Shown here: positions 1,858 through 57,823 of the stretch, piece by piece
Layout of the letters: every line of letters starts with the position of its first letter
How positions within the stretch are numbered: position 1 is the first letter of the stretch
From: Saccharopolyspora phatthalungensis
Lineage (GTDB): Bacteria > Actinomycetota > Actinomycetes > Mycobacteriales > Pseudonocardiaceae
Length of the DNA: 64,000 nucleotides
Direction: 5' to 3'
NCBI RefSeq assembly: GCF_014203395.1
Contig: NZ_JACHIW010000001.1
Coordinates: 2,959,501-3,023,500 of the forward strand
Notes under the pieces: generated by a model
Told to the model about the DNA's origin: nothing
The model's input: the letters and a program-made list of their open reading frames with translations, nothing else
Databases searched by the model: none
Made by a program: the position numbers and the translations under genes

Positions 1858-1900
1858 GCGCGACCGGTGAGCATGGGAACTTTCCTGTCACCGGTCGCGC
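1858..1900. terminator. 13-bp hairpin after sdaA enclosing a dispersed-repeat copy
   Basis: A perfect 13-bp inverted repeat (arms 1858-1870 and 1888-1900, GCGCGACCGGTGA and its complement) encloses a 17-base loop. The loop and inner stem ends are a minus-orientation copy of the dispersed repeat (1870-1891). It starts 7 bp after the sdaA stop and is likely the 3' end of that transcript. There is no T-tract, so intrinsic termination is an inference. Confidence 0.6.
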
Positions 1901-2066
1901 CCAGCACTCCTGCGGCGCGGGGAACGTTCTTGCGCCCCCGGCCTTGGCCCCGGTGAGTTTGTTCCTCGAGATCCGTTTCTCGGAGTGCAGGGCGTATCTG
2001 AAAACCCGGAAGCCGACGCCCACCTGAAGATCCGTACCCGACCCGCGTACTCGGCTCGCGGACGGT

Positions 2067-2190
2067 GTGACAGAAAGGTTCCCTTCCTCCCAGCGTCCCC
2101 GGGGTCGTGGGCTGGGTTTGGCAGGAAGGTTTTCTTGCTCGTTCGCCGGGCACCAACTCGGTGCTGGTTGACAGGAAAGTTCCCATGCTG
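2067..2190 (+). repeat. Dispersed 22-bp repeat, three direct copies
   Basis: Copies at 2067-2088 (TTCCT tip), 2120-2140 (degenerate) and 2169-2190 (ATGCT tip) all point the same way. Their starts are 53 and 49 bp apart. Confidence 0.8.
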
Positions 2191-2202
2191 TCAATCGGGA
2201 GG

Positions 2203-2242
2203 GCACAATTTGGTTGTGTGCAATTTAGTTTTGCGCTATCTT
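2203..2242 (+). promoter_or_regulatory. ohrR promoter with overlapping OhrR-like operator
   Basis: An imperfect palindrome GCACAATTTGGTTGTGTGC (2203-2221) overlaps a candidate -35 TTGTGT (2214-2219). A -10 TATCTT (2237-2242) follows 17 bp later. The GTG start at 2249 is about where transcription should begin, so the mRNA may be leaderless. OhrR proteins are known to bind AT-rich palindromes in their own promoters. Binding here is inferred. Confidence 0.55.
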
Positions 2243-2248
2243 GTTCGT

Positions 2249-2719
2249 GTGGCTGACTCGCAGTTGACCTTGGATCGGCAGGTGTGCTTTGCGCTTTACA
2301 GCGCTTCGCGGGCGTTCACCGGCCTGTACCGGCCGTTGCTGGCCGAGCTCGGCCTGACGTATCCGCAGTACCTGGTGATGTTGGTGCTGTGGGAGCGCGG
2401 GTTGGTCACGGTGAAAGAGCTCGGCGCCGCGCTGCGGCTGGATTCCGGCACGTTGTCGCCCTTGCTGAAGCGGCTAGAGGCACGCGGTTTGATCACGCGG
2501 CAACGCAGCGCTACGGACGAGAGGTCTGTGGCCGTGGCATTGACAACGGACGGCTCGGAGCTGCGGGAGCGGGCTCAGCGCATCCCCGACCGGATGGTGT
2601 CCGGGACCGGGCTGGAGGTCGACGAACTGGCCCAGTTGCGGTCCACATTGGAGCGCCTGACGGTCGCGCTGGATGCGGCACAGCGAGAGGCGGAAGGCAA
2701 GCAGGAGGTAGGACGATGA
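2249..2719 (+). CDS. ohrR: MarR-family organic peroxide sensor OhrR
   Basis: This 156-residue MarR-family repressor is likely to sense organic hydroperoxides and control ohr. The N-terminus reads LTLDRQVCFALYSASRA. Cys13 sits where OhrR proteins carry the reactive cysteine. The winged helix spans about residues 30-105 (VKELGAALRLDSGTLSPLLKRLE and the wing RSATDERS). I chose GTG at 2249 because the OhrR family starts here and a -10 box lies just upstream. Longer in-frame starts would run through repeat copies. Its stop overlaps the ohr start (ATGA), so the pair is translationally coupled. Confidence 0.88.
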   Translation: MADSQLTLDRQVCFALYSASRAFTGLYRPLLAELGLTYPQYLVMLVLWERGLVTVKELGAALRLDSGTLSPLLKRLEARGLITRQRSATDERSVAVALTTDGSELRERAQRIPDRMVSGTGLEVDELAQLRSTLERLTVALDAAQREAEGKQEVGR

Positions 2720-3132
2720 CAGTGCTCTACACGGCAGAAGCGACGGCGACCGGTGCCGGTCGGGACGGGCGGACTCGTTCCTCGGACGGGGTTATCGACC
2801 TCGACCTCGCGGTGCCTAAGGAACTGGGTGGCGCCGGTGGCGCCGCGACCAACCCCGAGCAGCTCTTCGCCGCCGGGTACGCGGCGTGCTTCCACAGTGC
2901 GCTGCAACTGGTGGCGCGCCGAGCCAAGGCCGATATCGCCGATTCGTCGGTCACGGCCCAGGTCGGCATCGGGCGCAACGGCGGCGGATTCGGCCTCAGC
3001 GTTGCTCTGGTAGTCGACCTCCCCGGCGTGCCGCGCGAGCAGGCGCAGGAACTCGCCGCCGCAGCTGACGAGGTCTGCCCGTACTCGAACGCGATTCGCG
3101 GCAATGTCGAGATCGAACTGCGGGTGGCCTGA
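2716..3132 (+). CDS. ohr: Organic hydroperoxide resistance protein Ohr
   Basis: Ohr is a cytosolic thiol peroxidase that reduces organic hydroperoxides. The 138-residue protein has the family length and both catalytic cysteines, in AACFHSAL (about residue 56) and EVCPYSNAIRGN (about residue 120). It starts at ATG 2716, overlapping the ohrR stop by four bases, with AGGAGG at 2703-2708. It ends one base before a convergent DUF202 gene, with no visible terminator between them. Confidence 0.95.
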   Translation: MTVLYTAEATATGAGRDGRTRSSDGVIDLDLAVPKELGGAGGAATNPEQLFAAGYAACFHSALQLVARRAKADIADSSVTAQVGIGRNGGGFGLSVALVVDLPGVPREQAQELAAAADEVCPYSNAIRGNVEIELRVA

Positions 3133-3133
3133 T

Positions 3134-3463
3134 TCAAGCGAACAGCACGTAGATCAGGCCAGAGCAGCCGGCCAGCACCGAAAGGGCGGCCACCGCGGCG
3201 GGCAGCGCGCCGCCTGGCAGCGGGGTCTCCGCGTGCAGCCTGCGTTCGTTGCGGAGGTGTCGGCGCCAGACAAGCCAGCTGATGGTGATCCCGAGCGGCA
3301 GCGTGAGCACACCGCAGGCCGCGGCCGCGATCGTGCTTTCGTGTCCGATTAGCCGCAGCAGCACCAGCATGCCGGCGACGAAGGCAAGCGTGGTGCGCAG
3401 CCAGGCCAGGGTGGTGCGCTCGACCTGCAGCCCGGGATCCCAGGGGCCAGTGGGGCGCTCCAC
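3134..3463 (-). CDS. DUF202 membrane protein
   Basis: This 109-residue protein has the DUF202 signature (VERTTLAWLRTTLAF) followed by three predicted membrane segments at about residues 20-38, 45-65 and 88-108. The molecular function of the family is not established. It starts with GTG one base after the stop of the upstream DUF202 gene, so the two form an operon of small membrane proteins. Confidence 0.8.
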   Translation of the reverse strand: MERPTGPWDPGLQVERTTLAWLRTTLAFVAGMLVLLRLIGHESTIAAAACGVLTLPLGITISWLVWRRHLRNERRLHAETPLPGGALPAAVAALSVLAGCSGLIYVLFA

Positions 3464-3464
3464 G

Positions 3465-3857
3465 TCAGAGTCCCGTCACGAACAGCAGGACGCAGGCGGC
3501 GACGCCGACCGCACCGAGCCCGTAGCCGAGCACCGGTGCCAGCCGTGGCGCGGGCAGCGGCCGTCCGCGCCGCAGGGCTCGTTCTGTGACCATCCACCGC
3601 GTGAAAGCCGTTGCGCTGCTAAGCACCCCGGCGAGTAGCAGTAAGATCGCCAACGCGGTCCGGAATGGACTCGGTCGGTCGGTGACCGCGTTCAGGGCCT
3701 CGATGCCCACACCGCCCGCCATCAGGGCGAGTGCGGTGCGGATCCAGGCCAGGAAGGTGCGTTCGTTGGCGAGGGTGAATCGGGGATCGGGCTCGGAGCC
3801 GTCCCGGTACAACCGTCGTGGCCAGCGCGAATCGCAGTCTTCTGGGTCGGTCGCCAT
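3465..3857 (-). CDS. DUF202 (YidH-like) membrane protein
   Basis: This 130-residue protein carries the sequence FTLANERTFLAWIRTALALMAGG, typical of YidH/DUF202, and has three membrane helices. I took the internal ATG at 3857 (MATDPEDCDSRW) as the start because the family's N-terminus begins nearby. A longer in-frame start at 3932 would add 25 residues of low complexity. It is paired with the second DUF202 gene downstream. Function is unknown. Confidence 0.78.
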   Translation of the reverse strand: MATDPEDCDSRWPRRLYRDGSEPDPRFTLANERTFLAWIRTALALMAGGVGIEALNAVTDRPSPFRTALAILLLLAGVLSSATAFTRWMVTERALRRGRPLPAPRLAPVLGYGLGAVGVAACVLLFVTGL

Positions 3858-3918
3858 GAGTTCACGGTAACGCTCCCGGATGGTGGAACGAGAGCGGTCC
3901 TCGCGGGTCACGGCCGGT

Positions 3919-3946
3919 GGCGGGCCCCGCACGAACGGGGCCCGCC
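3919..3946 (-). terminator. GC-rich hairpin downstream of the SSI-like gene
   Basis: A perfect 11-bp inverted repeat (3919-3929 and 3936-3946, GGCGGGCCCCG and its complement) has a 6-base loop. It lies 8 bp past the stop of the minus-strand inhibitor gene and is a likely terminator for it. Confidence 0.65.
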
Positions 3947-3953
3947 GGTGCTG

Positions 3954-4364
3954 TCAGAAGGAGAACACCTTCCCGGTCGCCGCCTTGGCCACGCATTCGT
4001 TGGAGTAGGTCTTCTCGAAGGTGACCGGTTGACCGCGCCAGTTACCTGTCGCGATCAGTGTCACCGGCCGGTGGTCCAGTTGACATATGGAGTGACCGCC
4101 ACTGAGCTGGTTGAAGTCGCCCTTCACGTTGCTGAGCTCTTGGCAGGCGTCGGTTGCGAACGGGTGCGAGCCGCCCGTCGGTTCGCAGGTCAAGAAGGCG
4201 GTGCGGGTGCCATCACCGCGCAGTTCGCCCCGGACCGAGAGGTTCATCATGGTGCCGGTCGTTGCCGACGCGGGTTGCGCGTGGGCGAGCGCCGGTGCCA
4301 GAGCGGTGCCGACCAGAGTTGCGGCGGCAAGGAGCGTTCGGCCGATCAGCTGTTGTGCAGCCAT
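3954..4364 (-). CDS. Secreted subtilisin-inhibitor-like (SSI) protein
   Basis: This 136-residue secreted protein matches the Streptomyces subtilisin inhibitor family. It has a signal peptide (residues 1-29, ending APALAHA), then LTCEPTGGSHP, DACQEL, SICQLDHRPV and SNECVA. These supply the four cysteines expected for two disulfides, and the protein ends in KVFSF. By alignment with SSI, the reactive-site P1-P1' pair in the loop after the third cysteine would be Leu-Asp. ATG 4364 is chosen because AGGAGG lies 8 bp upstream. It probably restrains extracellular serine proteases. A hairpin terminator follows. Confidence 0.85.
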   Translation of the reverse strand: MAAQQLIGRTLLAAATLVGTALAPALAHAQPASATTGTMMNLSVRGELRGDGTRTAFLTCEPTGGSHPFATDACQELSNVKGDFNQLSGGHSICQLDHRPVTLIATGNWRGQPVTFEKTYSNECVAKAATGKVFSF

Positions 4365-4699
4365 CTCGTCAATCCTCCTGGATGGTTGAGCAGACGATTC
4401 GCTTTCCTTTATCGCCGCAGCCGCGTCAATCGCCGCACCTTCGTCCCGTAGATCGCTGAAAAGTGTTTCGCCCGAACCGGTTTCAATCACGACGTGTCAC
4501 AACATGGTGCAGCCCGGCTGGGCCGGAAGTCGCCCATAAGCGGTGAGCTGCTCGATAAGGTGGTGAACCGATCGTCGATCATTGGCGTTGTTGTCCGGGA
4601 CCACGCGACGTCGGGCGGACTGCTTGCGGCTCTCCCCGATTCGGCGTTGTGATCCACAACACAATTCGGGCAGTGTGTCCGCAACAGCAAGGAGGCCTG
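4365..4699. other. Divergent intergenic region SSI-like / MHS transporter
   Basis: This 335-bp divergent promoter region has no gene. It contains the palindrome at 4646-4660 described separately. Confidence 0.6.
4646..4660 (+). promoter_or_regulatory. Palindromic operator candidate GTTGTGATCCACAAC
   Basis: A perfect 6-bp-arm palindrome with a 3-base centre lies 40 bp before the transporter start. Its form (TTGT-N-ACAA) resembles sites of GntR/FadR-type regulators. The cognate regulator is unknown. Confidence 0.45.
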
Positions 4700-6016
4700 A
4701 TGGCGACGGTACCCACGGGGCCGGACAGCGCCACGGTGCGCAAGGCGGCGTTCGCCAGCGCGGTGGGCAACACCATCGAGCTTTACGACTTTCTGATCTA
4801 CGGCACCGCTGCGGCCGTGGTGTTCAAAAAGTTGTTCTTCCCCGCCGATGGCCCGTGGGTGGGGGAGTTGCTGGCGTTCGCCACGTTCGGCGCCGGGTTC
4901 CTGGCGCGGCCGATGGGGGCCGGCGTGATCGGGCATTTCGGTGACGTGGTCGGCCGCAAGCTGATACTGGTCATCACGCTGAGCGTGACCGGCGTGTGCA
5001 CTGCGGCGATCGGACTGCTGCCCACCTACCAGGAGGTCGGCGTCTGGGCACCGGTAATGCTCGTGGTGCTGCGGCTGGTGCAGGGCTTCTTCCTCGGCGG
5101 CGAGCAGGGGGGCGCGGTGCTGATGGCCGTCGAACACGCGCCGCCGCACCGGCACGGGTGGTACGGCGGGTGGACCTTCCTGGGATCGCCGAGCGGCCTG
5201 TTCCTGGCCACCGGAGCGTTCGCCGGCGCCACGGCGATCTCCGGCGACGCGTTCCTCACCTGGGGATGGCGGGTGCCGTTTCTGGTGAGCCTGGTGCTGG
5301 TGGGGGTGGGCCTGTACGTGCGGCTGAGGCTGGCCGAAAGCCCCGAGTTCACGAAGATCCGGCAGCGCGGCGAGCGGGCCCGGCTGCCGGTCGCCGAGGC
5401 GTTCGCCCGTTCTTGGCGGCAAATTCTGCTGTCGGCCGGGGTAAACCTGGGGTTCAACACGTTCATCTTCATCCTGACCACCTTCCTGCTGACCTACGGC
5501 ACCGAGAAGCTCGGCGTGACCCGCGACGTCATGCTGCTCGGCAGCCTCTGCGGGTCGGCCGCGCAGATCGCCGGGATCCTGCTGTTCTCCCACCTCTCGG
5601 ACCGGCTCGGCCGCCCCCGCGTGATGCTGGGCGGCGGGATTTTCCTCGCGGTGTACGCGTTTCCGATGTTCTGGCTGCTGGACACCGCGAGCCCGGCGCT
5701 GATCGTGCTGGCGATGACGCTGGGATACGCCGGCTCGGCGGCGGTTTTCGGGCCGATGGCGGCATTCTGCGCCGAACTGTTCGCCACGAAGGTCCGCTAC
5801 ACCGGGGTGTCCTTGGGCTACCAGAGCGGTTCTGTTCTGGGCGGCGGCTTGTCCCCGGTAGTGGCGACAGCACTGCTCACCCTCTCGGGCGGGCAGTCCT
5901 GGCCCATCGCGGCGTACCTGGTGATCGGCGCGTTGATCACAGTCACCTGCCTGGTCATCACCGGTGAACCCACCCGCTGGGCCCGCGCGGACGAAACCGA
6001 GCCCGCGACGGCCTGA
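4700..6016 (+). CDS. MFS transporter, metabolite:H+ symporter (MHS) type
   Basis: This 438-residue, 12-helix permease belongs to the MHS branch of the major facilitator superfamily (ShiA/ProP/citrate type). Diagnostic stretches are GNTIELYDFLIYGTAA at the first helix, GAGFLARPMGAGVIGHFGDVVGRK at the helix 2-3 loop, and RLVQGFFLGGEQGGAVL. The substrate is probably an organic acid or osmolyte and cannot be told from sequence. I chose ATG 4700 because AAGGAGG ends 4 bp upstream. A longer open frame from 4649 lacks a ribosome site. It converges on the acyl-CoA synthetase gene with 28 bp between the stops. Confidence 0.88.
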   Translation: MATVPTGPDSATVRKAAFASAVGNTIELYDFLIYGTAAAVVFKKLFFPADGPWVGELLAFATFGAGFLARPMGAGVIGHFGDVVGRKLILVITLSVTGVCTAAIGLLPTYQEVGVWAPVMLVVLRLVQGFFLGGEQGGAVLMAVEHAPPHRHGWYGGWTFLGSPSGLFLATGAFAGATAISGDAFLTWGWRVPFLVSLVLVGVGLYVRLRLAESPEFTKIRQRGERARLPVAEAFARSWRQILLSAGVNLGFNTFIFILTTFLLTYGTEKLGVTRDVMLLGSLCGSAAQIAGILLFSHLSDRLGRPRVMLGGGIFLAVYAFPMFWLLDTASPALIVLAMTLGYAGSAAVFGPMAAFCAELFATKVRYTGVSLGYQSGSVLGGGLSPVVATALLTLSGGQSWPIAAYLVIGALITVTCLVITGEPTRWARADETEPATA

Positions 6017-6021
6017 GCCGT

Positions 6022-6047
6022 CAGCATGGCAACCTTGCGTGCGGTCA
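6022..6047 (-). repeat. Degenerate dispersed-repeat copy between convergent genes
   Basis: AGCATGGCAACCTTGCG followed by GGTCAC resembles the reverse form of the repeat with several mismatches and a 4-base insertion. It fills the gap between two convergent stop codons. Confidence 0.45.
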
Positions 6048-7760
6048 CTCGCCGTAGAGTTGGTCGATGATGTCGGCGTACTTCTCGTGGATTACCCGGC
6101 GCTTGAGCTTCAACGTCGGCGTCAGTTCGCCGCCTTCGATGCCCCAGGGCTGGTCGAGGATCCGGTAGCGTTTGACCTGCGCGGACGGGTTCAGCCGGTC
6201 GTTCGCGGCCCGTACTGCCTCTTCCACTTCGGATCGGACGGCGGGGTGCTCGGCCAGCTCGGTGCGGTCCAGGAAGGTGATGCCCCGCTCGCGAGCCCAT
6301 TGCGGCGCGGTGTCCTCGTCGAGCACCAGCAGCGCGACGAGGTACGGGCGGCCGTCGCCGAACACCAGCACGTGCCCGATCAACGGATGGGCCCGGAGCG
6401 CTCTCTCCACTGAGGCGGGCGCGATGTTTTTGCCCTCGGCCGAGATGATCAGCTCCTTCTTGCGGTCGGTGATGGTCAGGAAGCCGTCGTCAAGTGCCCC
6501 GACATCACCGGTGTGCAGCCACCCGTCGGCATCGGCGGCCGGCCGGATCACCCCGTCCGGTTGCAGGTAACCCGCGCACACCAGCGGCCCGCGCACCAGC
6601 ACTTCCCCATCCGCCGCGACGCACACCTCCACGCCCGGCACGGCCCGGCCGACGGTGCCCGGACGGCGGGCACCCGCACGGTTGGTGGTGACGCAGCCGG
6701 TGGTTTCGGTCAGACCCCAGAGTTCGAAGATGTCCACGCCGACGGTGCTGAAGAACTCCAGTACGGAGTTATCGATCGGGGCGGCGCCGCTGGAGGGCCA
6801 CACGGCGCGGTCCAGCCCGATGCGTGCTCGTAGCTCGCGCAGCCCTTGTGGACTGGTGTTTTGTTCGGTCGGGACCTCCTGCAGCGCGGCGGCAAGCTTC
6901 TCCCACGTCCTCGGGACAGCGAAGAACTGCGTCGGCCGGGCGCGGGTCAGGGCTGCGAGAATTCGTCCTTGATCGGCGCAGAAATGCACGTGGGCGACGT
7001 CGTGGATCGCCGTGTAGAGACCGACCATCCGCTCCGCGATGTGCGCCAGCGGCAGATAGCACAGCCTCGGCGCGTGCCGTTCGGGCTGCGTGACCTGGTG
7101 CTGCGCGGCGGCGGCGAAGCAGATGTTGCGGTGGGTGAGCACCACGCCTTTTTGGTCACCGGTGGTGCCGGAGGTGTAGAGGATCGCGGCCGGGTGTTCG
7201 GGCGTGACGGCGCTCCAGGCTCGCCGCACCAGCTCGGGATCGTCCCGCAAACGCTGCTCTCCCAGCAGCCGCAGGCGTTCCCAGGTCCGGAACCGATGAT
7301 CGGCGCCCACCATCGCCGCCTCATCGAGTACCACGATGTGTTCGACGGTGGACGCGTTGCGCAGGACCTTGGAGAAGCGCCGAAGTTGATCGGCCCCATC
7401 GAGCACGACCACCCTGGCCCGGCTGTGCTGGGCAATGTAGTGCACCTGGTCCTGGCTGAGCGTGGGATACAGGGTGCTGGGCACCGCGCCAAGATGGGTG
7501 GCCGCGACATCGATCAGCCAGTGTTCGGCACGGTTCGCCATCATGATCAACATAGTTTGGCCGCGTTGCAGCCCGAGCGCCGCGAGCCCGGCGGCTAGCG
7601 TGTGAACCTCGCGCTGCGCTTCGGCCCAGGTCCAGGTGCGCGGTTCGCGTCCGGCATCGGTCAGCGCCGGACGCTGCGGGAACTCCGCGGCGTTGCGTGA
7701 GAACAGTTGCGGAACGGTCGTTTCCAGCGCGGCGGTGACCCAGGCTTCCGAAGCGCTCAT
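6045..7760 (-). CDS. Long-chain fatty-acid-CoA ligase (AMP-forming)
   Basis: This 571-residue acyl-CoA synthetase activates fatty acids to acyl-CoA through an acyl-adenylate. The AMP-binding P-loop is YTSGTTGDQKGVVLTH (about residue 180). The ELWGLTETTGC and LHTGDVGALDDGFLTITDRKKELIISAEGKNI motifs follow, and the C-terminal domain ends LTPTLKLKRRVI. This pattern is typical of bacterial FadD15-like enzymes of about 600 residues. The ATG at 7760 gives the family N-terminus and has GGGGAG about 11 bp upstream. The neighbours (MerR, acyl-CoA racemase, acyl-CoA dehydrogenase) suggest branched or long-chain acyl-CoA catabolism. Confidence 0.92.
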   Translation of the reverse strand: MSASEAWVTAALETTVPQLFSRNAAEFPQRPALTDAGREPRTWTWAEAQREVHTLAAGLAALGLQRGQTMLIMMANRAEHWLIDVAATHLGAVPSTLYPTLSQDQVHYIAQHSRARVVVLDGADQLRRFSKVLRNASTVEHIVVLDEAAMVGADHRFRTWERLRLLGEQRLRDDPELVRRAWSAVTPEHPAAILYTSGTTGDQKGVVLTHRNICFAAAAQHQVTQPERHAPRLCYLPLAHIAERMVGLYTAIHDVAHVHFCADQGRILAALTRARPTQFFAVPRTWEKLAAALQEVPTEQNTSPQGLRELRARIGLDRAVWPSSGAAPIDNSVLEFFSTVGVDIFELWGLTETTGCVTTNRAGARRPGTVGRAVPGVEVCVAADGEVLVRGPLVCAGYLQPDGVIRPAADADGWLHTGDVGALDDGFLTITDRKKELIISAEGKNIAPASVERALRAHPLIGHVLVFGDGRPYLVALLVLDEDTAPQWARERGITFLDRTELAEHPAVRSEVEEAVRAANDRLNPSAQVKRYRILDQPWGIEGGELTPTLKLKRRVIHEKYADIIDQLYGE

Positions 7761-7892
7761 CGCAGCTGGTCTCCCCTCAGTGGGTACTTGGAAGTGACAT
7801 GCGCCACGACGCGATGAAACCTCATCGCGGTCCTCGTTGGCCAGCATCAAATGCTGGAATCGAGCGCCGTTCGCTCACTCGATCCGGTCGAA

Positions 7893-8609
7893 TCAGACGT
7901 GGTCGCGGATCACGTCGTTGACGGCACGCTGAAATCCGTTGACCAAGACCTGGATGGTCAGTGGTCGCAACTGATCGGTCGCGGCGCGAACCCGCTCGCG
8001 CTCGTCCTCCGGCCGACCGTGCTCGACGTACGGGCGCAGTACGTTCGCGGCGAACAACTCGCGCAGTTCGGCGGCGATCTGCGCGGTGTGCTGTTCGACG
8101 ATTCCCTTGGCCTGCACCAGCATTTCCAACGGCAAGTCGAGATCGAGGATCTGTAGCCCAGCGCCCAGCATCGCGGGTGCGGGCAGCCGCAGCCGAGTGG
8201 AGTCCGGAATTCGTTGCAGGATACCGAGTTCGATCAGCTGATCGACCAGCCTGTCGTCGAGGTGCTGACCGGCGCGGCGGTCGACTTCGTGCCGCTCCAG
8301 GTCCTCGGCGTGGTCGTCGGTCCACGGCGCGATCAGCGCGCGCTGCAACGCGAGCTCGTCGGGCGAGGCGTCGGCGGGGATGCGTTCCAGGTGGCGTTCG
8401 ATCGCCGACAACGTGAAACCGAGCGCCTGCAGTTCGCGGATCAGGTCGAGCCGGGCCAGATGATCGCGGCCATAAAGGCCAAGCCTGCCGCGCAGTCGGG
8501 GCGGCGGCAACAGGCCACGCGAGGAATAGAACCGGACGGTGCGCACGGTGACTCCGGCGCGGGCGGCCAGTTCGTCGATGGTGAGCTCTTCGTCCGCAGT
8601 TCGGAGCAT
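7893..8609 (-). CDS. MerR-family regulator of an acyl-CoA pathway (inferred)
   Basis: This 238-residue MerR-type activator/repressor has its winged helix at residues 9-75 (TIDELAARAGVTVRTVRFYSSRGLLPPP). A long C-terminal effector domain of about 150 residues lacks the cysteine pattern of metal-sensing MerR proteins, so an organic or acyl-CoA ligand is likelier. It is divergent from the alpha-methylacyl-CoA racemase gene. A palindrome at 8635-8655 between them is nearly identical to one before fadA at 19956-19976. I infer that this protein controls both units. ATG 8609 is the family-like start. No strong ribosome site is seen. Confidence 0.82.
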   Translation of the reverse strand: MLRTADEELTIDELAARAGVTVRTVRFYSSRGLLPPPRLRGRLGLYGRDHLARLDLIRELQALGFTLSAIERHLERIPADASPDELALQRALIAPWTDDHAEDLERHEVDRRAGQHLDDRLVDQLIELGILQRIPDSTRLRLPAPAMLGAGLQILDLDLPLEMLVQAKGIVEQHTAQIAAELRELFAANVLRPYVEHGRPEDERERVRAATDQLRPLTIQVLVNGFQRAVNDVIRDHV

Positions 8610-8634
8610 GCCCGAAACGTTACTCCTTGACCGC

Positions 8635-8655
8635 TGTGACACAAACGGTGTAACA
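8635..8655. promoter_or_regulatory. Palindromic operator shared with fadA (MerR site candidate)
   Basis: TGTGACAC-AAACG-GTGTAACA pairs in 7 of 8 arm positions. Aligned with the fadA upstream palindrome it agrees at TGTGACA, CGGTGT and ACA. A TTGACC hexamer lies just left of it (8627-8632). Confidence 0.6.
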
Positions 8656-8709
8656 CTGATTGCGTCGTGATTCTTGTGGTGCGCGACACAGGCTGCGGAG
8701 AGGTGTGGC

Positions 8710-9843: not shown

Positions 9844-9882
9844 GCGGCGCAGCCGCGGACGCCCGCCGAGCGGGAGAAGGAT

Positions 9883-10025: not shown

Positions 10026-10063
10026 GCATGATCGGCACGAACACCGAAAGGAGGCGTGAACCG

Positions 10064-11206: not shown

Positions 11207-11262
11207 CAGTCGGGCTCCGGCCCGATCGCGCGACCACGCGGGCGGAGGGGAGACAGGGTGCC

Positions 11263-12426: not shown

Positions 12427-12432
12427 GCACCG

Positions 12433-49536: not shown

Positions 49537-49956
49537 ATGCTCAACGCAACCCAGCCGCCACCCCGGCGACTGTCCGATGGCCGGACCACGTCGACACCCA
49601 CGTTCGGTGAGATCGACAAGTCCGCGGCCCGATATGCCCGCCCGGCGCCCGACTACCCCGGTATAGCGCGCAGCCCCGAGTTCCGCGACCTGCGTGCCAG
49701 GCTGCGCCGCTTCGTCTTCCCGATGAGCGCGTTGTTCCTCATCTGGTACCTCGGCTATGTCGTCATCGCGGCCTACCTGCCCGAGTTCATGAGCATTCGG
49801 CTCGTCGGCGCGGTCAACATCGGCTTGATCATGGGCATCGGACAGTTCGTGACCACGATCCTGATCACCGTCCTCTATCTCCGGTACGCGGCTCGCCAGA
49901 TCGACCCGCGAGTGCTCAGGCTGTACCGGAACGCGACCGGGGAGGAGCCTCGATGA
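49537..49956 (+). CDS. DUF485 membrane protein (ActP partner)
   Basis: This 139-residue protein has a disordered N-terminus and two helices (FVFPMSALFLIWYLGYVVIA and INIGLIMGIGQFVTTILITVLY-like) with the DUF485 pattern SPEFRDLRARLRRFVFP. It is the usual small partner of acetate/monocarboxylate permeases. I chose ATG 49537 with GGAAGGA upstream. Its stop overlaps the permease ATG (ATGA). Confidence 0.87.
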   Translation: MLNATQPPPRRLSDGRTTSTPTFGEIDKSAARYARPAPDYPGIARSPEFRDLRARLRRFVFPMSALFLIWYLGYVVIAAYLPEFMSIRLVGAVNIGLIMGIGQFVTTILITVLYLRYAARQIDPRVLRLYRNATGEEPR

Positions 49957-51521: not shown

Positions 51522-51529
51522 AGTCTGGA

Positions 51530-51551
51530 AGCATGGGAACCTTCCTGTCAC
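51530..51551 (-). repeat. Dispersed 22-bp repeat, single copy
   Basis: A full reverse consensus copy lies 9 bp after the actP stop. Confidence 0.88.
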
Positions 51552-51887
51552 TTCTGTCGTCCCGCAAGTGACATCGCGTCGATCAAGCGCACCTCGTGGG
51601 GACGAATAGATACACGACTCGAAGCGGGACGTGCAGTCGATGCCGGAAGTCATATTTATGTTGGATTAGAAGGTCGATCAACTCGTGCTGTTTTCGCAGG
51701 TGGGAGGGGTCTTTTCTGGTTGCTCAAAATTGCCGGTCGTAAAGATCGTTGGCGGAGGCGGCAAATGGGCCTTAACTGCAAAATCCTGCCCTTCTTGTAG
51801 ATGTTCGCGACAGTATTCATTCTCTGCCTTTGTTTTCGCCGCAACTTCGTGGCGGTGCAAGAGGGCCTGCTGGTCGTCCGGTGGTTG

Positions 51888-52025
51888 GTGACAGAAAGGT
51901 TCCCATGCTTCCGCAGTGCGGCGTCCTCGGCGGCTTGCCAGGTGGTGAGCTGTCACCAGCTACCGCGTCTTGGGCCTGGCGCAGCAGCCGTGTCGCTGGG
52001 TGGAGCATGGGAACCTTCCTGTCGC
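51888..52025. repeat. Two dispersed-repeat copies in opposite directions
   Basis: A forward copy at 51888-51909 and a reverse copy at 52004-52025 point away from each other's ATGCT ends and are 95 bp apart. The second starts about 26 bp past the GNAT stop. Confidence 0.8.
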
Positions 52026-52050
52026 CGTTGGGCTGGCGTCGGGGGTGGGT

Positions 52051-52602
52051 TCAGCGCGGGATCGGGATCTCGAAGTGGACAGACGGACTGTGCTGCCGGT
52101 CTCCACGTGCATCGTGGATCTGCTTTGCGACCGCGTGCCAGAACGGCTCGGCACCTTCGATTGCCGGGTTGGTGTGCAGATAGATCGCGGAATAACCCTC
52201 GGTGGCTGCGACGAAGTCGCAGGCCATCGAGACAAGGGCGCGCGCGAGACCGTGCCGGCGGTGTGCCCGGTCGACATACACCCGGAACAGCTGGGCGGTT
52301 TCGCCGCTCGGGTAGCGGTCGGCTATCCATTGTGGATGCGGCGGGCTGCTGGGCCCATTGGCTCGCACCGCTGTGGTCGCTACGACCTCGCCCTCGCGGA
52401 CCGCGATGAACAAGCCGTGCCGAGGCTCTTGTAGATAAGTTCCCTCGATGTCGATCACGTCCGCGTGCCATGTCGAGTCGTAGCCGTGTCCGAACTCTTT
52501 GTAGAAGGTGTCGAGCATGACCTTTCGTGCGCCGTCGGCATCGGATGGTCGAGCCGTTCGAACGACATAGTCGCCGATGCGGTGTTCGATGTTGTGCTGC
52601 AT
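52051..52602 (-). CDS. GNAT-family N-acetyltransferase
   Basis: This 183-residue acetyltransferase has an N-terminal IGDYVVRTARPSDADGARKV, the acetyl-CoA binding strand and loop FRVYVDRAHRRHGLARALV (the RRxGLA motif) and the YLHTNPAIEGAEPFWHAV end. The acceptor is unknown. ATG 52602 has GAAGGGA 5 bp upstream. An iron-box-like sequence lies about 100 bp upstream, so metal-dependent control is possible. Confidence 0.82.
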   Translation of the reverse strand: MQHNIEHRIGDYVVRTARPSDADGARKVMLDTFYKEFGHGYDSTWHADVIDIEGTYLQEPRHGLFIAVREGEVVATTAVRANGPSSPPHPQWIADRYPSGETAQLFRVYVDRAHRRHGLARALVSMACDFVAATEGYSAIYLHTNPAIEGAEPFWHAVAKQIHDARGDRQHSPSVHFEIPIPR

Positions 52603-52645
52603 TGCATCCCTTCTGGGTGATCCGGAGGTGCGTGATCGTTTCGGA

Positions 52646-52790
52646 GTGACAGGAAGGTTCCCTTGCTGTGAGTCCGAGGCGACCGAAACCCGAGCCATGC
52701 AATGATAATCATTTTCAATTGAACGGATGGTAGTGCCCCTGGTTTCGGGCTGGGTTACCAAGGCTCGATGACAGGAAGGTTCCCATGCTT
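52646..52790 (+). repeat. Dispersed 22-bp repeat, two direct copies
   Basis: Forward copies lie at 52646-52667 (TTGCT tip) and 52769-52790 (ATGCT tip), flanking the metal-box-like site. Confidence 0.85.
52701..52717 (-). promoter_or_regulatory. Fur/Zur-type metal box candidate
   Basis: AATGATAATCATTTTCA differs at one position from the classical iron-box half AATGATAATCATTATC. It is strikingly AT-rich for this genome. It lies 98-115 bp upstream of the GNAT start. Confidence 0.5.
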
Positions 52791-53084
52791 CAGCCGCGGC
52801 ACGCGTGTCGGCGACAGCGCCGATGCGGGTACACGGTGTACGACAAGCTCGTTCCCTGATTAGGTTTCGCTGAAATTGGGTGCGTCTCCGGTGGAGGCCG
52901 GTGGCTTCAAGTTGCTCAACGAGGCTCCTGGCGGCCGGTTTGCTTGGCTGGGCTGACGTCGAAATCCACGATTCGGCGCTCGCTGCGCGAGTTGGAATGG
53001 ACGATGCGCGGTTGACACCGGACAGCAGCGGACGACGCCCGTAAGGCGAGACGCCCAGGCATAACCGGAGAACCGAGGAGAAGC

Positions 53085-53790
53085 GTGAGTTCCGCAAGTC
53101 GAAGCTCATGGGAGCCGGTGCGGTTCGCACCTACGAGCAGGTCCTGGCGCAGATCGAGCAGCGCATGCTGGACGGGCTGCTCGCACCGGACAGGCTGCCG
53201 GTGAACAGGAGCTCTCGCAACTCCTCGGCGTCAGCCGCCCGTCACTGCGCGTGCTGGAAGCGCTTGGCATCGTCGAAGTTCACTCGGTCGCGGTCCCGGA
53301 AGCGGGACCGTATTCGTCGGCCGCCCCGGGGAGGCTTCGCGATCCTGCTGAAGATGCAGTTGGCGCTTGGGCATTTCAGCGACACCGATGTGCTCCGCAC
53401 CCGGCTGATGTTGGAAGAGTGGGTCGCAGACGCGGCGCGCTATGCAACGGCCGAGGACTACGAGGCACTGCGGGGCATCCTGGACCAGATGGACGGGCTG
53501 GAGCTGACTGCCCGGGACTTCAACCGGCTGGACACCGAATTCCAAGTGCGAATTGCGGAATTCACCGGCAATTCGCTGGACTCCTATTTGATGAGCTCGC
53601 TGCGCAGGCCATTCACCGCAGATGATCGATGCCTACGAGCGGTTGGCCGATTGGCGTGCGACCGCGAAGGCCGTGCGGGCTGAACACCGAAACATACTGC
53701 CTGCTATCGAGGAGCACGACGTGCTGCGGGCTGTCGATCTCGCGGCGCTACCGCGCACATCAGGGCACCGCACGGGGCCGAACTGATACA
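53085..53790 (+). pseudogene. Broken FadR-type GntR regulator
   Basis: Pieces of an FCD-domain GntR protein appear in order but in changing frames. There is an N-terminal SSASRSSWEPVR start behind GAGGAG (GTG 53085), then TYEQVLAQIEQRMLDGLLA, a damaged helix-turn-helix (SQLLGVSRPSLR and LEALGIVEVH), and the FCD domain LLKMQLALGHFSDTDVLRTR to NSLDSYLMSSLRRP. A C-terminal MIDAYERLADWRATAKAVRA lies in a further frame. At least four frame changes rule out function. It ends next to the convergent kynureninase gene and may have been its regulator. Confidence 0.75.
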
Positions 53791-53808
53791 CCTGCCCAAA
53801 CCGCCTGG

Positions 53809-55034
53809 TCACCGGCTTCCGGCGGCGAGGGTGCGGATCACGTCCATGGCGCGCCAGGTTCCGGCAAAACCTGTGGTCAGCGGCGACAGGCCGACCCGGA
53901 TACCGTCCGGCGGCCGGAAGTCGATGATGACCCCCACCTCGATCAGCCGCCGAGACAACTCGGTGCCGTCCGCACGAGCATGGTCACGTGCGCGCCGCGT
54001 TGCTCAGGGTCTCGCGGCGAGGCGATGCGCATTCCTTGCGGCACAAGCCAATGCTCGGCGAGCGAGGTGACCATTTCGGTGAGCGCCACGGCTTTTGCCC
54101 GGATGCTGCCGATACCCGCCTCAGCGACAAGCGCCACGCCCTCTTCGGCACCGACCATGCTGATGATCGGCGGGGTCCAGGACAGGGCCAGGCGCACCCC
54201 TGGGGCCGGGGCGTACGCGTGCTCCATGTCGAACGGATACGCACCACCCATCCAACCCCAAATTGGTTGGCGGAATGTGTCTTGATGCTTCTCGCGCACG
54301 TACAGGAAAGCGGGCGCGCCGGGGCCGGTGTTGAGGAATTTGTAGGTGCATCCGACCGCGAAATCTACGCCCGCAGCGTCCAGTTGGATGGGGACGCAAC
54401 CCGCGCTGTGGCACAGGTCCCACACCACCAGCGCGCCGTGTTCGTGGGCGAGCGCGGTGAGGGCGGGCATGTCGGCGATGTAGGCCGAGAGGTAGGCGAC
54501 GTGCGAGAGGGCGACCACCGCGGTCCGCTCACTGAGCTCGGTCGCTAGCTGCTCGGCCGTCACCCCGGCGTCCGGTGCGCTGTCGATCCACCGCACCGTC
54601 AGGCCAAGTTCGCCGGCGATGCCCTGCACGACGTAGCCGTCGGTGGGAAAATTGTGCCGGTCGGTGATGATCTCGGTGCGGTCGGGGCGCAGGGCCACGG
54701 CGGCCAGGAGCAGCTTGTAGAGGCAGACGCTGGTGGAGTCGGCGATAATCACTTGGCCTGCTGCGGCGCCAAGGGCGGCCTCGCCGAGCCGATCGCCGAT
54801 ATGTGCCGGTAGCTCCATCCAGCCTGCGGACCACGACCGGATCAGCCCAGTGCCCCAGTCCTCGCGTACCAGCGAGTCGAGCCGCGCCAGCGTCGCCTTC
54901 GGCGGCCGACCTAGCGAATTGCCGTCCAAGTAGGCGACGATGCCGTCGTCGGCCGGGGAGATGAAGCGCTTCCGGAAGTCCGCGAGCGGGTCCTGCTCGT
55001 CGAGCGCGCGGGCATCTTCGAAGGTGATGGTCAC
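53809..55034 (-). pseudogene. kynU: Kynureninase with a C-terminal frameshift
   Basis: Kynureninase cleaves kynurenine to anthranilate and alanine with PLP. From GTG 55034 (behind GAGGAG) the frame contains YLDGNSLGRPPKAT, VVWDLCHSAGC and the PLP-lysine segment CTYKFLNTGPGAPAFLYV, and runs to RGAHVTMLVRT. There it shifts and stops at 53943, giving 363 residues. The missing end, ELSRRLIEVGVIIDFRPPDG then LTTGFAGTWRAMDVIRTL, is encoded in the next frame to 53809. One lost base near 53955-53975 explains it. The truncated protein lacks about 55 C-terminal residues and may be inactive, or the base may be an error. Confidence 0.8.
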
Positions 55035-55365
55035 GAGAATCTCCTCCATATTCAACATATTTCGGCGAATAGACGGTATTTCCGGGAAGAACGTGAGATC
55101 CAGGGCCGTTTTGAGGGCCGCCACCTCGGTGGATCCGCCGCCCGCTTGAAGCTGGTGACCTGGCTGGCGGTCTTCAGACGCAGACCGGCCGCAGACTGGT
55201 ACCTGACATCGATTGCGACCGCTCCTAGCCGGTCTCGCCCGCCGCCGAATGCCGGTCCGGGTTCTCGTAACTCGGTGGGACTCAGGGGCTCCAGCACCGG
55301 CTACTTCTCGGTCCCGTTGGCAGAAGTGTCCCGTCGATGTGTCGAGCGCTGTTTCGGTTGGAGGA
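55035..55365. other. Intergenic region kynU-O-methyltransferase
   Basis: This 331-bp gap lies between two minus-strand genes. Nothing definite is seen. A minus-strand frame at about 55140-55297 (LSPTELREPGPAFGGGRDRL) looks coding in style but matches no family I know. Confidence 0.45.
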
Positions 55366-56394
55366 TCAGGTCTTTTCCCGTGGTTCGGCGATGCCGAACT
55401 CCAGCAGCGTGCGCTCGTCGGCCACCCGCCTGGTGTCCCGGAGCTCCAAGCCGCAGTCCCCCGCAAGCGCGGTGATTTCTTCGATGGTCCGCTCACGTCC
55501 CCCAAAGAACACGACCATGGACAGGTCGATAGCAGTGTTGAACCCCTGCCCGGGCAACCCTTCCCGGAGCACCTCGATCACGAGAACCAGGCCGTGTGCG
55601 GCGGCGGCCCGCGTGCATTCGGTCAGAATCGCTCTGGCGTTGTCGTCGTCCCAGTCATGCAAAATGTCGGAAAGCACGTAGGCGTCTGCGCCTCCAGGCA
55701 GCGGCTCGAAGAAGCTGCCTGCCACCGCGTCGGCGCGCTCGCCCCATCCAGCCTCGGCGAATCTCTCCGTGGCAGCTGCAGCGGTGGTTGGCACATCCAG
55801 CACACTGCCTCGTACTTTTGGGTGAGTACGTAGTATCCGGTCGAGCAAAGTGCCGTCGCCGCCACCTACGTCAACGATATGGCTGAAGCGACCCCAGTCG
55901 AATCGCTGCGCAATCTGTGTCGCCTGAACCTCGAACCGCCTGTTCATCTTGGCGTCGAACGACTTGCGCAACTGCGGCGTGGCTGCGAGGTCTGCCCAGA
56001 AGCCGCGCCCATAGCGACGCGAGTAGCCGAGCTCACCAGTCCTGACGGTGTGCAGCAGCTCAACAAAGGCGAGCTCAGCACGTCCTAGCCACCCAGTGAT
56101 ATCAAGGTCGGCGCGGAGTCCGCCGGGATCATCATCGCGCAACCCTCGGCCGAAGTCCGTGACTCGGTAGCGGCCGGTCTCGACATCGCGATCGAACACC
56201 CCGACGGTGACCAGATGGTCGAGCAGCCGGCGCAGCACAGACGCGGAGGCGCCGGTTTGCCGGGCGAGGCTTTCTGCGGTCGCTCCGGTCTGACCCGCGC
56301 GGTCGGCCAGGCCGAGCGTTGCGGCCACCCGTAGAGACATTGGGGTCACCAGATCTGCCAACGACCGCAACGACGAATCTGTGTACTCGCTCAA
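55366..56394 (-). CDS. SAM-dependent O-methyltransferase (small-molecule, plant/DnrK type)
   Basis: This 342-residue methyltransferase has an N-terminal winged-helix dimerisation domain (LADLVTPMSLRVAATLGLAD, ASASVLRRLLDHLVTVGVF), the SAM motif HIVDVGGGDGTLLDRIL near residue 175, and the active-site region LSDILHDWDDDNARAIL with the probable catalytic His. Relatives methylate polyketide or aromatic natural products. It lies upstream of kynU on the same strand, so the pair could once have modified an anthranilate-type metabolite. Confidence 0.88.
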   Translation of the reverse strand: MSEYTDSSLRSLADLVTPMSLRVAATLGLADRAGQTGATAESLARQTGASASVLRRLLDHLVTVGVFDRDVETGRYRVTDFGRGLRDDDPGGLRADLDITGWLGRAELAFVELLHTVRTGELGYSRRYGRGFWADLAATPQLRKSFDAKMNRRFEVQATQIAQRFDWGRFSHIVDVGGGDGTLLDRILRTHPKVRGSVLDVPTTAAAATERFAEAGWGERADAVAGSFFEPLPGGADAYVLSDILHDWDDDNARAILTECTRAAAAHGLVLVIEVLREGLPGQGFNTAIDLSMVVFFGGRERTIEEITALAGDCGLELRDTRRVADERTLLEFGIAEPREKT

Positions 56395-56560
56395 GCATCT
56401 GCCCCTTGGTGCCGAGTGATCAATGCAGGTATCAGTGATTGCAGTCGGTCAACACTTCAGCGGCCCCCGTCGCTCGCTGGAAATAGTCAGGCAGAACAAA
56501 AAACCACCCGCCTTACCTGTCTGATGCAGGAGGAGAGTGGTTTTGCTAGTCACTGCTGTG

Positions 56561-56633
56561 CGCCCTCGACAGGACTCGAACCTGTGACACCTGCCTCCGG
56601 AGGGCAGTGCTCTATCCGCTGAGCTACGAGGGC
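56561..56633 (-). tRNA. tRNA-Arg (anticodon CCG)
   Basis: The minus strand reads a complete cloverleaf. The acceptor stem is GCCCTCG/CGAGGGC, the D arm contains TAGCTCAGCGGATAGAGCA, the anticodon stem-loop CTGCC-CTCCGGA-GGCAG has anticodon CCG, and the T arm contains GGTTCGAGTCC. CCA is not encoded. It decodes CGG arginine codons. Confidence 0.96.
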
Positions 56634-56737
56634 TTGTCGCTGCGGACGATCGTTAGCTTAGCGCACCCGACGGGACCGCTTCGACGGGGGTCGGGATAAC
56701 CGCTTCCCGCGGTTGCCACACCTGCACAGGCGAGGCG

Positions 56738-56785
56738 GAGCATGGGAACTTTCCTGTCAAAGGTGACAGGAAAGTTCCCATGCTC
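56738..56785. repeat. Facing repeat pair, perfect 22-bp hairpin
   Basis: Arms 56738-56759 and 56764-56785 are exact complements around the loop AAGG. Both carry the CTTT/AAAG inner variant and the GAGCATG outer end. It lies between tRNA-Arg and the CDF gene, which diverge. Confidence 0.9.
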
Positions 56786-56809
56786 ACGCCCGTCCGGGTG
56801 TCGTTCGGG

Positions 56810-56840
56810 TTGACATGTGCATGCATGCATACTTCACTAT
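56810..56840 (+). promoter_or_regulatory. CDF promoter with TGCATGCATGCA palindrome
   Basis: A consensus -35 TTGACA (56810-56815) is followed by the perfect 12-bp palindrome TGCATGCATGCA (56818-56829). A possible -10 CACTAT (56835-56840) follows at a long 19-bp spacing. A metal-responsive ArsR or MerR-type regulator could bind here. This is an inference. Confidence 0.45.
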
Positions 56841-56868
56841 GTAACTGAGAGGCATTAGGAGGACGTCT

Positions 56869-57786
56869 ATGGGTCAGGGGCACGGGCACGGCTCCGCCGC
56901 CGATGCGGTCAGTGCATCCGGTCGCTACGTGCGGCGGTTGGCCGCGTCGTTCGCGATCTTGCTCGCGTTCTTCGTCCTGGAGGCTGTCGTCGGGTTTCTG
57001 ACGTCCTCGCTTTCGCTGCTATCCGACGCCGGGCACATGCTCACCGACGTACTCGGCGTCGGCATGGCGCTGGCCGCGATCACGGCTGCCCGGCGACCGG
57101 CCGAGGACAAGCGGACTTTCGGGCTCTACCGCATGGAGGTGTTGGCCGCGCTCGCCAACGCCGTGCTGTTGTTCGGCGTCGCCGGTTACATCCTCTACGA
57201 GTCCATCGCTCGGTTCCGGGAGCCGCCGGAGGTCGCCGGCGTGCCGATGATGTTGACGGCCGCCGCCGGGCTCGCCGCCAACCTCGTGGTGTTCGCGCTG
57301 CTGCGGCGGGGTGCCAACGAGAGCCTGAACGTGCGCGGCGCCTACCTGGAGGTGCTCGCCGACACCATCGGTTCCGTCGGTGTGCTGATTGGCGGCGCGG
57401 TGACCTGGGCCTTCGGTTGGTATCTTGCCGACCCGATCGTCGCCGTCGCCGTCGGGCTCTTCGTGCTGCCGCGTACCTGGAAGCTGGCCCGCCAGGCACT
57501 GCGGATCCTCGTCCAGCAGGCACCCGAGGGCGTGGACGTGCTGAAGCTGCGGGCCGATCTCGCCGCGCTCCCGTCGGTCACCGAAGTGCACGACCTGCAC
57601 GTGTGGACCCTCACCTCGGGCATGGAGGTCGCCTCAGCCCACCTGACCACCGGCGCCGACGCCGACCACGGCGGCGTGCTGGTCGCGGCGCAGCGGGTGC
57701 TGGCCGAGCGCTACCACATCGACCACGCGACCCTGCAGGTCGAACCCGTCGAGTGCGCTAAGCGCTGCCAGGCCCTGACCTGGTGA
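56869..57786 (+). CDS. Cation diffusion facilitator (zinc/cobalt exporter)
   Basis: This 305-residue, 6-helix CDF exporter has a His-rich N-terminus (GQGHGHGS). Metal-site motifs are SDAGHMLTD in helix 2 (HxxxD) and LADTIGSVGV in helix 5. The cytosolic C-terminal domain contains VHDLHVWTLTSGMEVASAHL. It exports divalent metals in exchange for protons. AGGAGG precedes ATG 56869. A repeat copy starts 15 bp after the stop. Confidence 0.92.
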   Translation: MGQGHGHGSAADAVSASGRYVRRLAASFAILLAFFVLEAVVGFLTSSLSLLSDAGHMLTDVLGVGMALAAITAARRPAEDKRTFGLYRMEVLAALANAVLLFGVAGYILYESIARFREPPEVAGVPMMLTAAAGLAANLVVFALLRRGANESLNVRGAYLEVLADTIGSVGVLIGGAVTWAFGWYLADPIVAVAVGLFVLPRTWKLARQALRILVQQAPEGVDVLKLRADLAALPSVTEVHDLHVWTLTSGMEVASAHLTTGADADHGGVLVAAQRVLAERYHIDHATLQVEPVECAKRCQALTW

Positions 57787-57800
57787 TTCCCGAGCGCCCG

Positions 57801-57823
57801 GTGACAGGAAGGTTCCCATGCTC
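57801..57823 (+). repeat. Dispersed 22-bp repeat between convergent genes
   Basis: A full forward copy lies between the CDF stop (15 bp left) and the DUF305 stop (4 bp right). It is bordered by a 5-bp CGAGC/GCTCG complement. Confidence 0.85.

Follow-up and report, generated by a model that had tools for sequence, protein, structure and literature searches.

A palindromic site family confined to one chromosome segment

In the genome of Saccharopolyspora phatthalungensis, a family of short palindromic tags is confined to a single segment of the chromosome: all 103 genome matches (≤3 mismatches) lie within 202 kb (C1:2,909,804-3,112,002). We tentatively regard these tags as putative sites of a dimeric DNA-binding protein that marks or organises this segment, a reading to which we assign a probability of about 0.48. 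The segment is located ~0.88-1.08 Mb from dnaA in the 8.54-Mb genome, and the 64,000 nucleotides analyzed here (“the window”, positions 1..64000, corresponding to C1:2,959,501-3,023,500, i.e. window position equals C1 coordinate minus 2,959,500) represent its middle part. In total, the domain holds ~110 tag copies, about one site per 1.8 kb, spread over 36 intergenic gaps and ~200 kb; ten 40-kb samples from the rest of the genome contained 0 sites. A preliminary description of the window had proposed a genome-wide family and had named copies confined to this region as the opposing outcome, which is the one found. This confinement is the most unusual aspect of the tag family and not a mark of ordinariness.

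The same pattern was observed in six mapped relatives from the own genus and two sister genera (G003, G006, G021, G034, G443, G445), so that each of the seven genomes, including this one, carries its sites in one segment of 122-231 kb. In G034 (4.83 Mb), the segment spans 165 kb at 0.83-1.0 Mb from dnaA; 380 kb beyond the domain contained 0 sites and a further 20 kb a single pair, at 4,711,759, after a PhoX-like gene. An outlier site in G006 is located within a coding SDR-like gene (both genes named by eye). No regulator was found beside the G006 outlier or the G034 pair, and the candidate of an autoregulated binder gene at such out-of-domain sites was therefore rejected.

Unit sequence and sites within the window

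Each tag is imperfectly palindromic over ~25 bp and reads TGACAGGAAGG-TTC-CCWTS-CTCGCA or -CTGTCA. The window contains 36 matches at ≤3 mismatches, compared to 0.01 expected, and a position-weight matrix (PWM) scan identified 39 sites between 1869 and 57823 besides a few degenerate half-copies, which agrees fairly well with the about 42 copies counted previously. The outer-end variants reported earlier (ATGCT, TTGCT, TTCCT) are real as well: among the 103 sites, tag position 15 is A in 52, T in 50, C once and never G, and position 17 is G in 84 and C in 17. We interpret the A/T choice at position 15 as the kind of degeneracy that minor-groove readout of duplex DNA may leave. The information content is 38 bits per site, where ~17 bits would suffice to locate 110 sites; as such a surplus is also expected from copying, it counts against the binding-array reading.

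All window sites given below derive from the PWM scan, with close pairs additionally defined by spacing. The first cluster comprises four sites (1869..2190; 1869-1890 on the minus strand, 2068-2089, 2119-2140 and 2169-2190 on the plus strand) and is followed by three plus-strand sites at 9882..10025 (9882-9903, 9962-9983, 10004-10025), a gap whose orthologues in G006 and G021 also hold three plus sites. Two minus-strand sites 43 bp apart occupy 13292..13356 (13292-13313, 13335-13356), and three sites are found at 19445..19895 (19445-19466 minus, 19819-19840 and 19874-19895 plus). Further doublets are located at 25242..25315 (plus, 52 bp apart; 25242-25263, 25294-25315) and 28603..28675 (minus, 51 bp apart; 28603-28624, 28654-28675), followed by three minus-strand sites at 31342..31536 (31342-31363, 31405-31426, 31515-31536). 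Inverted pairs, minus before plus, were detected at 34877..34925 (34877-34898, 34904-34925), 37456..37505 (37456-37477, 37484-37505) and, in degenerate form, 39043..39089 (39043-39064, 39068-39089), with a lone minus site at 35978..35999. Three scattered sites cover 40854..43951 (40854-40875 plus, 42467-42488 minus, 43930-43951 plus). Three more lie at 51529..52024 (51529-51550 minus, 51889-51910 plus, 52003-52024 minus) and two plus-strand sites at 52647..52790 (52647-52668, 52769-52790). An inverted pair with identical arms and a 4-nt spacer is located at 56738..56785 (56738-56759 minus, 56764-56785 plus). The final window site (57802..57823, plus) lies in a gap that is also occupied, in plus orientation, in G006 and G021.

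Only one pair lies in an intact gene, as described before: the inverted pair at 46300..46347, in the 3' part of a NIT/histidine-kinase-like gene (45720-48815, minus strand). Likewise, the PWM scan placed no sites in argS-lysA-hom or in the block termed glcDEF (gene names by eye). Across four genomes, 14/372 sites fall inside called genes, though the domains are 77-85% coding. The placement near stop codons stressed in the preliminary description is indeed common; it is not a rule, as every type of gap is occupied. Site orientation relative to replication showed an approximately 2:1 excess of plus by site, but 19:12 by cluster, which is not convincing as a direction bias. The ~200-kb block as a whole holds ATP-synthase, argS-lysA-hom-thr-rho and kgd-like genes (named by eye).

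These positions bear on two alternative readings of the tags. The first, that they are transcript terminators or 3'-UTR hairpins acting at the RNA level, draws on the many copies directly after stop codons, on the long hairpins that inverted pairs could form, and on a weak excess of wobble-tolerant transition mismatches between arms in ++/-- gaps (22 tolerated in the likely transcript versus 14 not). However, a terminator scan of 40000-58000 gave none at its two inverted pairs, an Rfam search of the window matched nothing but a tRNA, direct tandem arrays and arrays in divergent gaps are present, and terminators would not be expected to keep to one segment, which makes this explanation very unlikely. 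The second, that a regional transcription regulator or silencer uses them as operators to set the expression of the ~200-kb block, would suit palindromic operator-like units in gaps and the genes just listed. We nevertheless consider it improbable, since the divergent, promoter-containing gaps have the lowest site density in 3/5 genomes (G006, G021 and G443, the exceptions being G034 and the present genome), sites often follow stop codons or lie in convergent gaps, and the non-carrier G442 keeps much the same genes and order without them.

Spacing of neighbouring sites

The arrangement of neighbouring sites is strikingly regular. In G034, 32/32 close inverted pairs show an offset of 26; in G443, the same offset is found in 22/22 pairs, and 29/30 direct spacings of ≤35 bp equal 29. 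All of these spacings, in two genera, correspond to 29 bp between palindrome centres. In the own genus, the spacings peak at 29-31, 41-43 and 51-54 (about 30/42/52 bp centre to centre), with a periodicity (R 0.49) exceeding the highest value among 500 jittered sets (0.30) and a best period of 11.3 rather than 10.5. The tags thus combine a palindrome with fixed or helically phased spacing, as in dimeric operator arrays, and this combination points to a dimeric DNA-binding protein. We suggest that one protein dimer would sit on each palindrome, that adjacent dimers may touch along the DNA, and that the segment could thereby be drawn into a nucleoprotein domain serving compaction, anchoring or segregation, by analogy with MatP/matS and with centromere-binding proteins on tandem arrays. 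The W and S letters of the two pair arms covary; a history of copied pairs would explain this as well, which argues against the binding-array reading.

Distribution and conservation among relatives

Beyond this genome, 19/21 genomes of the own genus are rich in the site. Synteny of the segment was shown in five of the six mapped relatives, by gene order in G006, G021, G034 and G443 and by hom inside the segment in G445, with G003 outside this comparison. Among testable orthologous gaps, 15/15 were co-occupied in G006 and 19/21 (p 2.7e-17) in G021, a relative with 85% protein identity, with identical orientation in 14/14. Between genera, gap occupancy was likewise associated, with an odds ratio of 9 (p 0.002) in one comparison and 16 (p 0.0003) in the other. 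Moreover, site identity in two comparisons (8 alignable gaps each) was 0.91 and 0.89 compared to 0.73 and 0.49 for the flanks, the latter values (89% versus 49%) belonging to the relative at 85% protein identity. Together with the count in the window, this conservation between species bears out the view of a real, selected, intergenic repeat family, whereas the idea that it is “actively spreading” is rejected, given the retained gaps and orientations. One border gap is common to this genome (G000), G021 and G443, and G034 ends within ~1.5 kb of it. The right border varies, as the sites of G034 (family A) end ~12 kb before the own-genus border, which counts against the binding-array reading.

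One match each was found in G033 (taken as S. erythraea), G072, G013, G442 and G066; these relatives of carriers are nearly site-free, suggesting that the function is dispensable or replaced, a further point against the binding array. A replacement motif was not found at the equivalent locus in G442, G033 and G013 (60 kb only in G013). Using a home-made gene caller and with G033 partly covered, we found no gene in the domain that is present in all compared carriers and absent from the non-carriers G442 and G033. A protein reading the tags was thus not identified, which also weighs against the binding array. G442 has largely the same genes in the same order as the carriers, and occupied G443 gaps are mostly longer than their G442 orthologues (median +82 bp at 16 two-site gaps; 5/28 shorter). 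Such pairs of carriers and non-carriers represent a natural control.

These comparisons are also where a BIME/REP-like intergenic repeat without host function must be weighed, whose units would have multiplied through recombination or an enzyme since lost, and whose confinement would reflect local spread in an ancestor followed by inheritance. In its favour, the units are palindromic, intergenic and arranged as inverted pairs or tandem arrays, most occupied gaps of G443 are longer, W/S letters agree between arms, the right border differs across genera, and G034 has another palindromic family with a much wider distribution. On the other hand, it does not readily explain why the same gaps and orientations are so strongly retained, sites more identical than their flanks, the shared border gap with G034 nearby, or the turn-like spacing. 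A mobilising enzyme was also sought. PF01797 (Y1, RAYT-type), whose orphan form had been suggested as a search target, matched 13/33 genomes and 8/25 carriers, with no match in G000, G014, G021, G034 and G443-G446, so that RAYT/Y1 mobilisation is not supported given the 17/25 carriers without it. At 54 pairs (32 in G034, 22 in G443), flanks of 2-10 bp matched no better than re-paired flanks save isolated single matches (one of 7 bp), and a MITE with target-site duplication was rejected accordingly. Overall, we regard such a repeat as a genuine contender, though a rather unlikely one.

Comparison with known systems

MatP/matS is a system of short palindromic sites confined to the Ter macrodomain of E. 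coli and read by MatP. The tags resemble it as palindromes restricted to one chromosome domain (103/103 in 202 kb), but their segment lies ~0.9-1.1 Mb from dnaA and not at the terminus, their sequence is unrelated, and, at about one per 1.8 kb, they often form spacing-fixed arrays. MatP (PF06303) was detected in 0/9 genomes, with a positive E. coli control. Our best reading is therefore that the tags may work in a MatP/matS-like manner while not belonging to that system (no MatP, not terminal). Centromeres provide a second parallel: sopC is a 43-bp tandem array with an inverted repeat per unit, and own-genus tags are likewise tandem at 40-43 bp spacing with an inverted repeat per unit; in contrast to sopC and parS clusters, they are scattered over 200 kb and 36 gaps. 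The parS-type sites are separate, located beside dnaA in G034 and G000, and differ from the tag sequence, so the tags are not a ParB-parS set. With REP, BIME and REPIN elements, the tags share intergenic palindromes, fixed-spacer inverted pairs and tandem mosaics; they differ in occupying one segment, in the RAYT-type result above and in positions kept between species. RacA/ram and Noc/SlmA are regionally biased site sets of nucleoid proteins; the tags share this bias, whereas those sets are ori-centred or exclude ter.

Phage stoperators are also dense dispersed sites, and this likeness would fit an integrated element, phage or plasmid remnant with its own stoperator- or centromere-like sites. 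The segment, however, belongs to the core chromosome and keeps its synteny in relatives without the sites, which largely refutes such an origin, and GACAGGAARGTTCCCWTSCT has no exact match in the viral collection; we consider it scarcely credible. As stated in the preliminary description, no named family matches, at least in the searches made. Literature searches yielded no description of such tags, and the part of PMC3610266 considered makes no mention of such sites.

It is unexpected to find dense conserved sites in a single segment midway along a replichore in an actinobacterium. To our knowledge, domain-specific site sets lie around the origin or terminus. Should a protein recognise the tags, it would define a chromosome domain with testable borders, packing and purpose; should none do so, the tags would be a striking repeat family that has kept to a single territory through genus-level divergence.

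Further repeat families in G034

Two more families were identified in G034. Family B (GGCGAACGGCAC...TTCGCC) is palindromic, with 421 matches over most of the chromosome outside the family A segment, which it flanks on both sides, nearly skipping the A core. Family C is an ordinary repeat with 142 matches over the whole chromosome, including the A segment. It is conceivable, although unlikely, that on the chromosomes of this group tag families with the same ~29-30 bp unit spacing and different sequences form a territorial address code, in which related nucleoid proteins would read the labels of different segments. Next to the RNase HI gene, the intergenic gap contains a B array in G034 and 11 A sites in the own genome.

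Family A is confined to one chromosome segment

The dispersed repeat was present in the window as first described, with 36 matches at up to three mismatches to GACAGGAAGGTTCCCATGCT against 0.01 expected, and a position-weight matrix placed 39 sites of this family (family A) between window positions 1869 and 57823. Matrix scores across the surrounding 400 kb were bimodal, with 110 sites above 12 bits compared to 0 expected from shuffles. The motif, TGRCAGRAARGTTCCCWTSCTY, carries about 38 bits across 22 columns, about double the ~17 bits that would single out 110 places in the 8.54-Mb genome. Based on genes called with a simple script, which missed some low-GC genes, 3 of 111 matrix hits (one a weak outlier) lie inside genes, in a domain that is 79% coding.

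Density had suggested a genome-wide element. However, the whole genome of S. phatthalungensis yielded 103 matches at up to three mismatches (reversed-pattern control: 1), and a count of 103 was also obtained from the 400 kb surrounding the window, where all of them fall within 2,909,804–3,112,002 of the contig. This segment of 202 kb is referred to as the A domain. Apart from one weak in-gene matrix hit, no sites were found in the 90 kb to its left or the 108 kb to its right, and ten samples of 40 kb from other parts of the contig contained no sites at all. The domain lies 0.88–1.08 Mb from dnaA (2,032,853). In the samples, the sign of the GC skew flips near dnaA, and its values remain at or above zero as far as 5.7 Mb, so the domain is not located at the terminus.

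In mid-domain (window 32000–52000), G+C is lower (0.61–0.66 per 4 kb) and several inverted pairs are degenerate. The minus strand carries DUF742, roadblock and NIT-domain histidine-kinase-like genes at 44640–48815, a set which we take to be conservon-like, and a tRNA gene at 56561–56633.

Family A in related genomes

Among 390 genomes of the bacterial family, high counts were limited to the own genus, the single genome of genus g14 (G034) and four of six genomes of genus g46. Of the 21 other Saccharopolyspora genomes, 19 had 43–135 matches; G013 had 2 and G020, which seems to carry a drifted form, had 9. The low-count members of g46, G066 and G442, had one match each, and the remaining genomes at most five, apart from G266 (genus g16) with 15. 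Those listed for G266 lie on three contigs, several of them arranged as inverted pairs, and have a differing core (GACAGGAAAGTCCCC); they look like a genome-wide REP-like family. No such family was found in the syntenic region of G033; G072, of the same genus as G033, had one match. In a collection of 84,980 named species, the exact inverted-pair pattern occurred in 22 stretches, all Saccharopolyspora.

The domain is syntenic by gene order in G006 (231 kb, 95 sites) and G021 (201 kb, 94 matches, 92 strong) of the own genus, in G034 (165 kb, 72 sites) and in G443 of g46 (180 kb, 98 sites), and by hom position in G445 of g46 (122 kb); that of G003, own genus, spans 203 kb. Few outliers lie beyond the domain: a single coding match in G006, a pair in G034, and three matches with one mismatch in G003 and one in G445. 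The 380 kb examined outside the G034 domain held no sites. At the left border, the gap adjoining the gene at 2,909,265 contains the outermost A cluster in S. phatthalungensis and G443; G021 has a cluster there and one further cluster besides. In G034, ~1.4 kb separates the last A site from the orthologue of this gene. On the right, S. phatthalungensis, G006 and G021 share a border gap that follows the RNase HI gene; in G034 family A ends ~12 kb earlier, and the gap at RNase HI holds an array of another repeat, family B, instead.

Conservation of sites in place

S. phatthalungensis has 36 occupied gaps, and the comparison covered the subset of these with orthologous neighbours in the relative. 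All 15 such gaps were shared with G006 and 19 of 21 with G021, with two and three more occupied in the relative only, and single-orientation gaps kept their orientation throughout (9/9 and 14/14). Sharing across genera was weaker than within the own genus, yet clear, with 6/11 for G443 (odds ratio 9, p 0.002) and 7/11 for G034 (odds ratio 16, p 0.0003). In alignable gaps with equal site numbers (8 per species), site identity was 0.91 (G006) and 0.89 (G021) versus 0.73 and 0.49 in the flanks; one of 16 comparisons was reversed (0.64 vs 0.67). Since gaps and orientations are shared and sites outmatch their flanks, the sites are of old origin, passed on by descent and maintained by selection. The preliminary description had suggested an actively spreading or selected element; the sites are not spreading now.

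G443 and G442 have 120 adjacent gene pairs in common, with no sites in G442. Compared to G442, G443 gaps were longer by a median of 82 bp with two sites (16 gaps) and 256 bp with seven (2 gaps), versus a median difference of 0 without sites (92 gaps); 5 of 28 occupied gaps were shorter than their counterparts. Tandem arrays do vary in copy number. Because carriers in three genera have overlapping occupied gaps, we favour an old origin of family A with several losses.

Site anatomy and putative mechanism

Conservation extends beyond the 22 bases in G034 and G443, with TGACAG or TGCGAG at one end and CTGTCA or CTCGCA at the other, which makes the unit an imperfect palindrome of ~25 bp, with TGACAGGAAGG-TTC-CCTTCCTGTCA as the most symmetric form. 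Centres of close palindromes lie 29 bp apart in G034, where 32/32 close inverted pairs show an offset of 26, and in both arrangements in G443 (22/22 close inverted pairs at 26; among direct spacings of no more than 35 bp, 29/30 at 29). Spacings in the own genus peak at 29–31, 41–43 and 51–54 bp. For 143 spacings from three own-genus genomes (duplicated spacers removed), which are not independent owing to shared ancestry, R was 0.49 at a period of ~11.3, where none of 500 jittered sets exceeded 0.30, and 0.39 at exactly 10.5. Between the arms of 79 inverted pairs, the variable A/T letters match in 73 and the G/C letters in 64, with permutations reaching no more than 61 and 50; at the majority of inner positions the arms do not match. 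A TGC-type half-site (TGCGCG, TGCACG or TGCGTG) occurs in one arm of 17/32 pairs in G034 and in both arms of none.

The spacing of the palindromes is fixed or turn-like, and in G443 direct copies share it with inverted ones, which speaks for protein dimers bound to duplex DNA over RNA hairpins. A terminator scan and Rfam gave no support for an RNA role; among the mismatches tallied between arms, wobble-tolerant ones were in weak excess (22 vs 14). Family A is a real, conserved and confined repeat, for which we infer a function: a putative nucleoid or segregation protein would gather the A-domain segment. Such a system would work like macrodomain or centromere-like tag sets and like MatP/matS, but by the membership test for MatP/matS it does not belong there, and none of the named families tested is one whose definition family A fits in full. 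A search for a candidate binder gene inside the A domain found none. Neither RAYT-type mobilisation nor target duplications at the sites were supported.

Other repeat families

Family B of G034, seen for example at 3.74–3.82 Mb and 4.02–4.10 Mb, is likewise palindromic (GGCGAACGGCACTYTCGCC), with 421 genome-wide matches at up to one mismatch and both tandem and inverted units 30 bp centre to centre. With up to three mismatches allowed, B units number 22 and 27 in the 80 kb on either side of the A domain, versus a single match (3,867,978) and no array between A sites 3,836,458 and 3,968,325. On the right-hand side, B arrays (3,979,716–3,993,757) separate the dense A part from the last A cluster (4,001,818–4,001,948), and beyond this cluster comes a B pair at 4,003,292. 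Among 84 exact plus-strand matches listed, none falls in 1.54–3.01 Mb or 3.81–3.99 Mb; a 60-kb sample at 2.40–2.46 Mb contains one array of 8, so family B is thinner rather than absent in the 1.54–3.01 Mb stretch. No second tag family appeared in the samples taken from S. phatthalungensis, and the idea that separate tag families label separate chromosome segments therefore rests on one genome, G034.

A further G034 repeat, C (GGTCCGGTACCGCCGCCC, 142 matches), is spread evenly across the whole chromosome among the matches listed, occurs within the A domain too (3,849,340, 3,950,445 and 3,959,251), and is probably an ordinary MITE-like element. In S. phatthalungensis, the palindromic word ATTTC....GAAAT occurs at ~6 intergenic places in the 40 kb at 5,700,001–5,740,000. 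Intergenic words of CGCGGGGATGGACC type, with 12–17 repeats, were seen in G194 (C1, 2,800,001–2,940,000) and are possibly a CRISPR array.
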